Virus record (IMG/VR): IMGVR_UViG_3300028908_000221
Span: 1-29,165 of that record
Origin: a virus
Direction: 5' to 3' (one strand)
DNA: 29,165 nt
How positions within the stretch are numbered: position 1 is the first letter of the stretch; every line of letters starts with the position of its first letter. The translations under genes and the position numbers were made by a program. A model generated the notes under the pieces. That model saw nothing but the letters and a program-made list of their open reading frames with translations. It did not search any database and was not told the origin of the DNA. Shown one piece after another: positions 1 through 8,665 of this stretch.

Positions 1-58
1 TCAGAGCATCCGGCTCATACCCGGAGTGTCGAAGGTTCGAATCCTTCCGCCGCCACCA
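1..58 (+). tRNA. tRNA-Met (CAT), 3' part, cut by the window edge
   Basis: This is the 3' three quarters of a tRNA. The anticodon arm is TCCGG (9-13), loop CTCATAC (14-20, anticodon CAT at 16-18) and CCGGA (21-25). The T arm is GAAGG / TTCGAAT / CCTTC (31-47). The acceptor strand CGCCGCC (48-54), discriminator A55 and an encoded CCA (56-58) follow. The anticodon stem lacks the three G:C pairs of initiator tRNA, so this is elongator Met, or less likely the Ile tRNA with a modified CAT anticodon. The 5' acceptor strand and most of the D arm lie outside the window. The integrase gene runs antisense through the whole segment. Confidence 0.9.
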
Positions 59-75
59 TTCCCGATACTTGATTT
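1..75. other. candidate phage attachment junction (attL or attR) at a tRNA 3' end
   Basis: An integrase gene pointing into the 3' end of a tRNA is the usual layout of a prophage end, with the crossover in the tRNA tail or just beyond the CCA. Everything right of about position 59 reads as phage DNA. Serine integrases share only a very short core, so the exact crossover cannot be placed. No second copy of the tRNA tail was found at the other side of the window. A phage-encoded tRNA or a free phage genome is a less likely alternative. Confidence 0.5.
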
Positions 76-1455
76 GTTATTAAATTCCCGTGGAACCTCA
101 GTTGTTCCTAATCCATTCCATTCAATAACAAACTTATCCCGATATGCAATTATTCTATTAATAGCAAGGTGCCAGAAATGTGCTTTTTCTTCCCTGCTCA
201 TGTATTGATAAACATTTGTAATGTTGTTGATAATTCTCTTTATCTCCCTGGCATCAATTGTCCTTTCTTTTTTAGGCGTTTTTAAGATTTCTTCTCTACG
301 TTTTTTGAGTTCATTTATTCTCCGTGCAACTTCCTGCACATTCCCAGTTCTCTCTGAGAGGGCAACTAATCTTCGGATCTTTCTGTCAATCTGTTTAAGC
401 TCTTTTTCAATGTTATTCTCTTTAAATTTATTATCTTTTTTAATATCAATGTTTACAAGTTTTTCTATCGCGGAAAGTAATAAATCTTCCATTTTTGACT
501 CATTCACATATTGGGAACATGCTTTACTTTCACGGCTTATCTTTTCGCAAATATAATAAAATGTGATTTCTTTTTTATTCTTCCAATGCCTGGTGTGGAA
601 AGAAAGATTATGCTCGCAATAAGGGCAGTATATAAGTTTAGAAAATAAGCGAGCATATTTTGTTTTGGTATTTTTTGCTCTGCTGTGCCTGATTTGAGAT
701 ACATCTTGATAAGTTTTTAGAGAAATAATTGCCTTATGTTGTCCTTTATACCATTCCCACTGTTCTTCAGGGATTCGCTTATTTTTCCCATTTCTGCGTC
801 TCACAAGGTACCCACAATAAAATGGTTGTCTTAATATACTTCGAACATGCCATACAGAAAACCCCATTTTTTGAGCAATTTCCGACATAGAGTATCGTTT
901 AAGTGCTAACTGATAAATCTCCTTTACTTTCTCGGCCTCGTCCGGGACAATCACAACCTTATTGCCTTTTAACCTCTTATAACCATAAGGAATGGCCCCC
1001 GATGGGAGGCCATTTTGTAGTCTTTGTTGAAAAGAGTCTATAGCACGGTCTACATCAATCTCGCGTTCAAAATTCGCAAAATCAACCAAAATTGCAAGCA
1101 TAAGGCGTCCGGTAGATGTAGTAGTGTCAAATTGCTGAGTTACCGATACAAATGATATATTATACTTCTTTAATTTCTCAATGGTAGTATGGAAATCTAA
1201 TATTGACCTAGATAATCTGTCAATTTTATAAACAACAAGCACATCAAAAAGTCTAGACTCAGCGTCTTTCATCATTTCTTGAAACGCAGGACGTGCTGTA
1301 TTCTTACCGGAAAATCCTTTATCTTCGTAAATTTTATAGAGTTTCCATCCCTGCGCTTTAATATAGGCTGTAAGCCTCTCCTTTTGCATTGAGATGCTTT
1401 CCCCTTTGAGTGCTTGCCGAGGGGTAGAAACCCTAACGTATATTGCCGCTTTCAT
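1..1455 (-). CDS. int: large serine recombinase (phage integrase)
   Basis: This 484-aa protein has the full layout of large serine integrases. The N-terminal resolvase domain (about 3-145) contains YVRVS with the nucleophile Ser10, and R8 beside it. A recombinase domain follows (about 155-260), then a zinc ribbon with C277, C280, C303 and C313, and a coiled coil (about 345-395). It would insert or excise the phage between attP and attB. The ATG at 1453-1455 lies 23 nt inside the upstream gene, so translation is probably coupled, and the gene is last in the repressor operon. The stretch that usually ends this family (…NRIIAYRDKFVIEWNG…) is finished by about residue 448. The last 19 or so residues are simply the tRNA read antisense, and the stop codon is the very first base triplet of the window. 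The helix after the catalytic core reads FEREIDVDRAID where FERE-x3-ER is usual, a small oddity. Confidence 0.95.
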   Translation of the reverse strand: MKAAIYVRVSTPRQALKGESISMQKERLTAYIKAQGWKLYKIYEDKGFSGKNTARPAFQEMMKDAESRLFDVLVVYKIDRLSRSILDFHTTIEKLKKYNISFVSVTQQFDTTTSTGRLMLAILVDFANFEREIDVDRAIDSFQQRLQNGLPSGAIPYGYKRLKGNKVVIVPDEAEKVKEIYQLALKRYSMSEIAQKMGFSVWHVRSILRQPFYCGYLVRRRNGKNKRIPEEQWEWYKGQHKAIISLKTYQDVSQIRHSRAKNTKTKYARLFSKLIYCPYCEHNLSFHTRHWKNKKEITFYYICEKISRESKACSQYVNESKMEDLLLSAIEKLVNIDIKKDNKFKENNIEKELKQIDRKIRRLVALSERTGNVQEVARRINELKKRREEILKTPKKERTIDAREIKRIINNITNVYQYMSREEKAHFWHLAINRIIAYRDKFVIEWNGLGTTEVPREFNNKSSIGNGGGGRIRTFDTPGMSRML

Positions 1456-6387: not shown

Positions 6388-7314
6388 ATGCAAATAAATA
6401 AAATAGGAAATTCGCAAGGAAATCCGCAACTTCAAGATGGATACACCCGGATTGCTAACGAATTACTTGAAGCAATTTTGACCTTCCCGTTCTCAAAACG
6501 AGAGATCAAGGTAATTTTATATGTTATCCGATATAGTTATGGATACCATAAAAAATACACTATTGATAGTGCTGAAAAGATCGTAAATATAGCTAACAAC
6601 ACAGAGATTGATGAAGCAGATATATCTCGAACTATTAAAAAACTTGAATCTCAGAATGTTCTTGTTCGTGTTAATAAACATCTTGCGCTTAATAAACATT
6701 ATAGTGAGTGGAAAAAAATTGGTAAAACACCAACAAAAGAAAAAGATGGACAGTTGGTAAAACACCAAAAAGGGGTTGGTAAAACACCAAGAAAAAATTG
6801 GCAAAACACCAACAAAAAGTTGGTAAAATACCAAGAAGCACCTTTGACAAATGTAGATAAAATCAAACCTGCCGAGACCCCTAAAGAAAGTATTAAAGAA
6901 ATATATAAAGAAAATATAGAGAAAGAGAATATAGAGAAAGAAAAAAATCCGAAACCGAAACCAACCAAAAAGCAAATCCTAAAAGAGAAAATCCGTTATA
7001 ACGAAAGCGAAGGGCGTTTCGAGTCATTTCCGGAAGAGCTTATCAGTTATTTTCAAGCGAGGTACCCGGATATAGACGTGAAAAACGTATTAAAAACGAT
7101 GGAAAGCTGGATTTTTACGAAATTTATTCTTAAAGGCAAACATTCGCCTTACAGGGATTATGCCGCTGCGCTCGCTCGCTGGCTGGCAAAGGAAGAACAA
7201 CAATTGAAAAACCAAAAGGAGGTTGGCTATGTCAAAAATGGAATATCCCGATATGTCGGGATCACAAAGTCAGAAAAGCGGAATAAACAGTTCAAAGATG
7301 AATTCATTCCATGA
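6388..7314 (+). CDS. phage replisome organiser (lambda O-like initiator)
   Basis: This 308-aa protein is the replication initiator. The N-terminal winged helix (about 14-110) starts with the typical NPQLQDGYTRIANELLEAIL and continues REIKVILYVIRYSYG, followed by the segment ISRTIKKLESQNVLVRVNKH. The middle (about 111-200) is low-complexity and Lys/Asn/Glu-rich; its DNA carries the five iterons and an AT-rich stretch. The C-terminal domain (about 205-270) resembles the part of O-like proteins that contacts the helicase loader (FPEELISYFQARYPDIDV … YAAALARWLAKEE). The protein should bind the iterons in its own gene and recruit the DnaC-like protein encoded next. The SD is TGAGG, 8 nt before the ATG, directly behind a strong hairpin. 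The last 86 nt overlap the loader gene in another frame, so that stretch codes twice. Confidence 0.88.
   Translation: MQINKIGNSQGNPQLQDGYTRIANELLEAILTFPFSKREIKVILYVIRYSYGYHKKYTIDSAEKIVNIANNTEIDEADISRTIKKLESQNVLVRVNKHLALNKHYSEWKKIGKTPTKEKDGQLVKHQKGVGKTPRKNWQNTNKKLVKYQEAPLTNVDKIKPAETPKESIKEIYKENIEKENIEKEKNPKPKPTKKQILKEKIRYNESEGRFESFPEELISYFQARYPDIDVKNVLKTMESWIFTKFILKGKHSPYRDYAAALARWLAKEEQQLKNQKEVGYVKNGISRYVGITKSEKRNKQFKDEFIP
6719..6834 (+). repeat. five iterons (15-bp, dyad TTGGT-AAAAC-ACCAA)
   Basis: Copies lie at 6719-6733, 6754-6768, 6776-6790, 6798-6812 (one change, TTGGC) and 6820-6834 (one change, AAAAT). The last four are exactly 22 bp apart, about two helical turns, so they face the same side of the DNA; the first is 35 bp from the second. 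Each has inverted arms TTGGT/ACCAA. The spacing is not a multiple of three, so the same DNA word is read in different frames (IGKTP, QLVKHQ, VGKTP, NWQNTN, KLVKYQ). This shows that the DNA and not the protein sequence is conserved. Confidence 0.92.
6719..6945. other. probable origin of replication inside the initiator gene
   Basis: The iteron block (6719-6834) is followed by an AT-rich stretch (about 6880-6950) that contains two copies of AATATAGAGAAAG (6913-6925 and 6928-6940). Iterons next to an AT-rich unwinding region in the middle of the initiator gene is the layout of lambda ori within gene O. The initiator gene with a DnaC-like loader directly downstream completes the set. This is inferred from layout; activity is not shown. 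Confidence 0.8.
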
Positions 7315-7978
7315 TGATCTTGACAATGTAATAAAAAAAATAATGGATGTGCCAGAAGAGGAATTAAAAAAAATAAGAGACAAGTGGAATACGCATATTC
7401 GTGATTTACGGAATAAAAACAGAATTCTATTCCGTAACTTTGCAGAGCGCAACATCGGATTTCGGTATGTGGAAAAATTTAGCGAAGATAAAGTAAAAAA
7501 TAAGAAAGCAGTGGATACAATAATTTCGAACCTTGTCGGAAAGAAAAAAGGTGCTGTGATCATGGCAGATGTTGGAGTAGGCAAAACAATGGCACTTCTT
7601 TATATCGCAAAAAGAGTTACTGAGGAAGAAGGAGAAAGGTGTATTCAGAAACACTATCTTGAACTTGAAAGAGTGCCTGTATCGTATTTCTTTATGCCGA
7701 GGTTATTTGCTCTTTTGCACTCAGGAGGGATGCCACGACTTGAAAAATATGTGCTACTTGACGACTGGGGGCGTGAGTATGCAGAACCATTTGTGCTATC
7801 ACAGTTCGAGGCACTTATCGAAAAGATATATGCCTCAAAGCGTGGACTTGTTATTACGACTAATCTGTTGAAGGAAGAGTTTTATAACCGTCCTGGTTGG
7901 GAGAGGATTATTGACAGAGTGCGTGAGATGTGCTCCGTCCTGGTTTTATCTGGCAAATCGAGGAGAGCTATACAATAA
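7229..7978 (+). CDS. DnaC-like helicase-loader ATPase
   Basis: This 249-aa AAA+ protein of the DnaC/IstB/DnaI group would load the host replicative helicase at the phage origin. It shows a Walker A (ADVGVGKT, 113-120, with Ala for the first Gly), a Walker B (YVLLDD, 174-179), a sensor-1 region (VITTNL, 209-213) and Arg residues in ERIIDRVRE (about 225-233) that fit the Arg finger. The N-terminal 70 residues would contact helicase. The start at 7229 has AGGAGG (7217-7222) 6 nt upstream; the TTG at 7223 abuts the SD and is unlikely. The first 86 nt overlap the initiator gene in a different frame. A small hairpin (ATCCCGA/TCGGGAT with TATG loop, 7245-7262) lies just inside the gene. Confidence 0.9.
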   Translation: MSKMEYPDMSGSQSQKSGINSSKMNSFHDDLDNVIKKIMDVPEEELKKIRDKWNTHIRDLRNKNRILFRNFAERNIGFRYVEKFSEDKVKNKKAVDTIISNLVGKKKGAVIMADVGVGKTMALLYIAKRVTEEEGERCIQKHYLELERVPVSYFFMPRLFALLHSGGMPRLEKYVLLDDWGREYAEPFVLSQFEALIEKIYASKRGLVITTNLLKEEFYNRPGWERIIDRVREMCSVLVLSGKSRRAIQ

Positions 7979-7980
7979 CG

Positions 7981-8337
7981 ATGACAATAAATAGAGAACA
8001 ATTCTTAGAGCTTTATGAAATCATCGCAGAAGCCATGAATGAAAACGATCCTGTATTGGTTTTGAAAGCTGTTCTTAGGTATCTAAAAATTAAAACTCCC
8101 TCTAAAGAAGAAAAACCCTTTAATCATCCTATCTGTGATGTTTTCTTTTCATTGCATACACCGTTAGAGAGGATTTATGGATTCATCGAGTTTCTGCGAA
8201 AGAAAGGATTTCAATCATTCTTGCTTCCAGATGGCAAAATAGTGAGAACTGAAGCACCGGTTGAAGTTGTAAAAAAAATCGATACAACGTTTGGTATTCA
8301 AAGTATTGCAAAACTAAGGAGATGTAAAAATGACTAA
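7981..8337 (+). CDS. unknown early protein (118 aa)
   Basis: I do not recognise this family. It is a soluble mixed protein: a helical N-terminal half (REQFLELYEIIAEAMNEN) and a C-terminal part with PLERIYGFIEFLRKKGFQSF and a strand-loop-strand (FLLPDGKIVRTE). The ATG is 2 nt after the loader gene; AGGAG lies 15 nt upstream, which is long, so coupling to the loader gene probably matters. It overlaps the DUF1064 gene by 8 nt. Its place between helicase loader and nuclease suggests a role in replication. Confidence 0.7.
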   Translation: MTINREQFLELYEIIAEAMNENDPVLVLKAVLRYLKIKTPSKEEKPFNHPICDVFFSLHTPLERIYGFIEFLRKKGFQSFLLPDGKIVRTEAPVEVVKKIDTTFGIQSIAKLRRCKND

Positions 8338-8665
8338 ATACCACAGCGTAAAAGTAGAGGCAGATGGAAGGATTTTTGATAGCAAGATGGAACGGGATTA
8401 TTACATTTTTGAGCTCCTTCCTAAACTTCAAAGTGGAGAAATCGTAAAAATTCAATTCCAACCACGTTTCTTACTCCAGCCCGCTTTCTGGAAAAAAGGC
8501 AAAAGATATCGGGCTATTGAATATGTTGCGGATTTTAAAGTTGTATATAAGGACGGCCACAAGGAGATCATCGACGTGAAAGGCTTCCAAACTGCTGTGT
8601 TCCAGTTGAAGCGAAAGTTGTTTGAGTATAAATATAAAGATTTGGAATTGAAGGTGGTAAAATGA
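8330..8665 (+). CDS. DUF1064 protein, PD-(D/E)XK-type nuclease
   Basis: This 111-aa protein matches DUF1064 over its full length: KYHSVKVEADGRIFDSKMER, QFQPRFLLQP, YRAIEYVADFKV and IIDVKGFQT. The spacing of E21, D68 and D82-x-K84 fits the active site of PD-(D/E)XK / Holliday-junction-resolvase-like nucleases, the class to which this family is usually assigned. It could resolve branched replication intermediates before packaging, or act with the Bet protein. AAGGAG lies 8 nt before the ATG. Its stop overlaps the next start as ATGA. Confidence 0.88.
   Translation: MTKYHSVKVEADGRIFDSKMERDYYIFELLPKLQSGEIVKIQFQPRFLLQPAFWKKGKRYRAIEYVADFKVVYKDGHKEIIDVKGFQTAVFQLKRKLFEYKYKDLELKVVK

Follow-up and report, generated by a model that had tools for sequence, protein, structure and literature searches.

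Gene content of the window

The window analyzed here is the whole of the 29,165-base virus record IMGVR_UViG_3300028908_000221. It encodes a serine integrase, a repressor, a RecT-family protein, a terminase, a portal, and a capsid protein, a gene content by which its source is a temperate tailed phage. The large serine recombinase at 1-1455 is the probable integrase. A Bacillota host is likely from the best match of the portal, which is Geobacillus phage GBK2 (27%), and from the matches of the helicase loader to Roseburia and Faecalibacterium phages; used as a query against viral contigs, the portal gave no match. The features relevant to this analysis are as follows.

1-1455, minus strand: large serine recombinase with Resolvase, Recombinase, and zinc ribbon domains
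6388..7314, plus strand: O-like replication initiator gene, 308 codons (PF04492, phrog_678, similarity to P22 gene 18)
6424..6714, plus strand: winged-helix DNA-binding domain, approximately residues 13-109 (AlphaFold2 model, fold search)
6610..6621, plus strand: codons 75-78 (D-E-A-D), putative specificity residues (covariation, predicted helix position)
6719..6733, plus strand: iteron 1, TTGGTAAAACACCAA, phase 1, peptide IGKTPT
6754..6768, plus strand: iteron 2, TTGGTAAAACACCAA, phase 0, peptide LVKHQK
6776..6790, plus strand: iteron 3, TTGGTAAAACACCAA, phase 1, peptide VGKTPR
6798..6812, plus strand: iteron 4, TTGGCAAAACACCAA, with a TTGGC arm, phase 2, peptide NWQNTN
6820..6834, plus strand: iteron 5, TTGGTAAAATACCAA, with an AAAAT core, phase 0, peptide LVKYQE
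6880..6950, plus strand: A-rich, AT-rich stretch, putative DNA unwinding element (AT content, tandem repeat, relatives)
7229..7978, plus strand: DnaC-like helicase-loader gene (phrog_50, E = 2.9e-16; phrog_3277, E = 2.9e-12; start from the sequence)

The product of 6388..7314 matches Phage_rep_O (PF04492) with E = 2.4e-20 and 73.3 bits, against a curated cut-off of 28.7, and it also matches phrog_678 (replication initiation, O-like). The P22 gene 18 product is 33% identical to it over the DNA-binding domain, and tblastn aligns it with P22 gene 18 and numerous enterobacterial O proteins. By these similarities it is a member of the Phage_rep_O family and a homolog of lambda O. The whole O protein as a direct query found no match among viral and genome contigs, because the search patterns were too specific.

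An AlphaFold2 model (mean pLDDT 74.5), built from the window together with related loci, has helices at residues 17-32, 37-52, 61-72, and 76-88 and strands at 92-95 and 98-101. A fold search with the domain returned winged helices of the MarR, LexA, CRP, and DnaD-N-like kinds, none of them significant by Foldseek (no match at E <= 0.001). We claim no closer fold relative, since the VIA-align score of the candidates considered (Z ~8) is also at a commonplace level. Searching the PDB by sequence gave chance matches or none, and no solved structure of an O DNA-binding domain was found.

The start of the loader gene was listed as TTG 7223, but ATG 7229, behind AGGAGG, is the probable real start; the loader thus starts inside the O-like gene, overlapping its 3′ end (region 7223-7314). 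Downstream from the replication module, 8330-8665 encodes a DUF1064 protein (PHROG Holliday junction resolvase).

An iteron array inside the initiator gene

The middle of the O-like gene contains the quasi-palindrome TTGGT-AAAAC-ACCAA five times, at spacings of 35, 22, 22, and 22 bp. Iterons 1-3 are identical, and iterons 4 (TTGGC...) and 5 (...AAAATACCAA) have one mismatch each. Their phases relative to the ATG at 6388 are 1, 0, 1, 2, and 0, so that all three frames are used and the encoded peptides differ. At three or fewer mismatches the window contains seven matches to the iteron, compared with 1.86 expected; all five copies with no more than one mismatch fall inside 116 bp, and the other two are three-mismatch strays elsewhere. 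No close copies outside the array were found in the whole window, and the palindromic-iteron finder reported 0 families in 20 shuffles of the iteron region.

The iterons are followed by a stretch that is 83% AT over the 60 bp at 6889-6948, the highest value among the 60-bp steps between 6088 and the end of the loader gene. Inside it lies a 15-bp tandem repeat (6907-6944). Unlike the iterons, this repeat stays in frame, its period being a multiple of three; by itself it therefore provides no evidence of selection at the DNA level, and it could be kept at the protein level. The first-pass annotation had described these elements, namely five 15-bp copies with four at 22-bp steps, different frames and peptides, and an AT-rich stretch with a 15-bp-period repeat downstream, and the sequence bears them out.

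The same annotation had likened the layout to the lambda ori in an unrelated-looking sequence. The likeness holds: Lambda has a homologous O gene with four annotated palindromic iterons in its middle, at the same place as those of the window, followed by an AT-rich tract and then by the helicase-loader gene, which in the window too lies directly downstream from the O-like gene. The sequence, however, is not unrelated, since the protein is a Phage_rep_O homolog and the lambda iteron, TCCCTC-AAAAC-GAGGGA, has the AAAAC core layout in common with that of the window. The two origins differ in their arms (TTGGT in the window, TCCCTC in lambda) and spacing (22 bp and 20-24 bp, respectively), and the loader of the window is of the DnaC-like kind, without a lambda P annotation. 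P22 gene 18 likewise encodes a homologous initiator and contains palindromes (TTTACC..GGTAAA) followed by an AT-rich 14-bp repeat, although its arms differ and its recognition residues are APTK. Iteron plasmid origins of the RepA/RepE type resemble the window in having initiator sites repeated at ~22 bp and an AT-rich tract, but their iterons lie outside the rep gene, are direct rather than palindromic, and belong to another initiator family.

Since a winged-helix protein bound inside its own gene could repress transcription, the iterons might serve the O-like protein solely as an autoregulatory operator, with the true origin elsewhere. We consider this very improbable: Iterons located within the gene serve as the origin in lambda and Stx phages (PMC7466680), the AT-rich tract and the helicase-loader gene follow here as they do in lambda, and the window is without further close copies of the motif.

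The same iteron in distantly related O-like genes

If the array is an origin inside the initiator gene, the DNA might be conserved in relatives while the peptide varies, a comparison that had been proposed in advance, and this is the pattern we find. The O-like gene of GBK2 carries the same iteron as the window (TTGGTAAAAYACCAA) in seven copies at the same place, and the two phages also have related portal proteins, whereas their O-like proteins are 36-39% identical in the matched region. The GBK2 spacings are 21, 27, 21, 21, 33, and 23 bp, and six of the seven copies are in one frame. The GBK2 gene (locus L002, 1492-2421; GBK2 30825-31754) is annotated as a primase (KJ159566) or a DnaD-like helicase loader (NC_023612), and the in-gene iterons carry no annotation in the GBK2 feature table.

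An iteron pattern with exact 22-bp steps gave no match, but a pattern with variable gaps succeeded, finding the iteron pair in the genomes of two Desulfotruncus species, Aneurinibacillus, Bacillus, and Sutcliffiella and in one further virus. Wherever the frame was determined at these loci, the copies proved to be within an O-like gene; in Desulfotruncus alcoholivorax their phases are 1, 1, 1, 0, 2, and 1, which again covers all three frames. The DNA-binding domains of the O genes sharing the TTGGT-type iteron are 31-43% identical to that of the window.

We also gathered O-like genes from phages, prophages, and viral contigs and kept 91 that are >20% different in the DNA-binding domain. At least three strict in-gene palindromic iterons occur in 57 of the 91, compared with 2/455 shuffled genes and 0/172 flanks of 900 bp. 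A relaxed finder adds 21 of the remaining 34 genes (null, 4/102 shuffles). By both finders iterons are absent from 13 of the 91 O-like genes, and the in-gene site is therefore not universal or not always detectable. More than one reading frame is used in 49 of the 57 arrays, and 107 of 185 spacings are not multiples of three. The commonest spacing is 23 or 24 bp, and all of the spacings fit a period of ~10.9 bp; the 57 spacings >26 bp fit this period better than 5000 out of 5000 jittered sets, including codon-stepped jitter. Given the multiframe arrays and the helical phasing, selection appears to act on the DNA, as had been suggested from the different frames of the iterons in the window, and on the helical face.

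The frames also bear on whether the repeats instead encode a repeated linker peptide that is conserved for the protein. The iterons do sit in the linker that follows the DNA-binding domain, and the frame common to six of the seven GBK2 copies gives VGKTPT-like peptides. This explanation is nevertheless even less probable than an operator, and we set it aside as contradicted by the use of all three frames in both the window and D. alcoholivorax, by the family spacings, and by locus L297, whose array steps through phases 2, 0, 1, 2, 0, 1, and 2.

Covariation of initiator residues with the iteron half-site

A site inside the initiator gene provides one linked protein-site pair per genome. Over the 57 genes, a partial Mantel scan scored the 96 columns of the DNA-binding domain one at a time for association with the similarity of the iteron half-sites, controlling for the remainder of the domain. 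In this unprompted scan the top four columns are, in order, 62, 60, 59, and 61, corresponding to D78, E76, D75, and A77 of the window. The top covariation is 0.366 compared with a permutation maximum of 0.257 (2000 permutations; ancestry corrected only in part), and the mean of the four columns is 0.240 compared with a maximum of 0.077 (shared ancestry again only partly corrected). In the AlphaFold2 model the helix preceding the wing spans residues 76-88, so that residues 75-78 would make up the N-cap and first helical turn of the predicted recognition helix.

At the level of single positions, residue 78 and the half-site base four from the center form the best of 768 pairs (z = 16), with the pairings H-C (37/39), D-G (7/9), N-T (9/12), and K-C (5/5). 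Residue 75 pairs with the next base outward, five from the center (D-G, 15/15). Among 24 genes of <50% identity, the majority rule for residue 78 fits 20, which none of 5000 shuffles reaches; residue 75 is weaker in this thinned set (126/5000 shuffles). A 40% identity cut leaves eight genes, with which the test has little power. In disjoint nearest pairs, the median half-site distance is 0.01 if the last two residues are the same and 0.30 otherwise (P = 9e-5). For 23 held-out genes, half-site prediction from the quartet gives 0.165, which is far better than the average (0.365); prediction from the remaining domain is not significantly poorer (0.204, P = 0.096), and the superiority of the quartet over overall relatedness therefore rests on the partial Mantel scan and its permutations. 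Two proteins with D at residue 78 have other arms: L081 (TTACG) and L058 (CTAAC). The window itself, with D75, D78, and the half-site TTGGT, obeys the pairings.

We think it probable that iteron recognition by Phage_rep_O initiators follows a simple, transferable code, in which residue 78 sets the base four from the center (H-C, D-G, N-T, K-C) and residue 75 the base five from it (D-G, A-A). We found no published account of such a residue/half-site code in the open-access literature. As protein and site are encoded together in each gene, the code could be read straight from any phage genome and, if true, would predict both the specificity of an origin and the phages that compete for one another's origins. 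The genetics of lambdoid origin specificity goes back to the 1970s (Furth and Yates 1978, cited in PMC6022878). Since the pairs point to two base-specifying residues, the question becomes testable by changing those two residues.

That the palindromes are mRNA hairpins controlling translation or transcription, and not DNA sites, is as improbable as the linker peptide and is set aside, since although the transcript folds better than shuffles (z = -3.1), as expected of any inverted-repeat array, a pair is lost in the TTGGC copy, where C opposes A, arm identity tracks the DNA-binding helix of the encoded protein, and spacing tracks the DNA helical repeat.

A model for initiation at the proposed in-gene origin

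The homology, the anatomy of the locus, the conservation of the iterons across frames, their helical phasing, and the protein-DNA covariation are established here. An iteron origin inside the initiator gene, as first proposed for this phage, is the best reading of the sequence: Distant O genes have the same iteron at the same place, most relatives have in-gene iterons, and the arms covary with the helix. We are therefore highly confident in a lambda-type phage replication origin, working by the steps proposed below.

In lambda, O dimers bind each iteron to form the O-some, and the adjacent AT-rich tract opens (PMC7466680; PMC6022878). By analogy, a dimer of the O-like protein would bind each TTGGT-AAAAC-ACCAA palindrome through its N-terminal winged helix, and recognition of the TTGGT half-site would fall to residues 75-78. 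An O-some would form as several dimers, all on the same helical face, wrap the iterons, and it would melt the A-rich stretch (6880-6950). Through its C-terminal part, the O-like protein would then recruit the DnaC-like loader (7229-7978), which would in turn load the host replicative helicase. So understood, the window holds an ordinary lambda-type origin in an uncharacterized phage, probably of Bacillota, and matters more as an entry point to the specificity question.

Tandem repeats downstream from the iterons in relatives

AT-rich or A-rich short repeats likewise lie downstream from the iterons in P22, Turner, and GBK2. In L297 (1788-1990), where the O-like gene has seven GTTGTY iterons, four tandem CAAAAGACAA-like units follow as a candidate unwinding element. 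Tandem ACAAAAGACAA-like units are seen just 3′ of the iterons at L007 1047-1074, L003 1092-1121, L010 1894-1923, and L297 1940-1990. The O genes with these units (P22, Turner, IdasGreatGrand, and L297) differ in their iteron arms, and the recurrence of the units suggests a conserved unwinding or single-strand binding motif.
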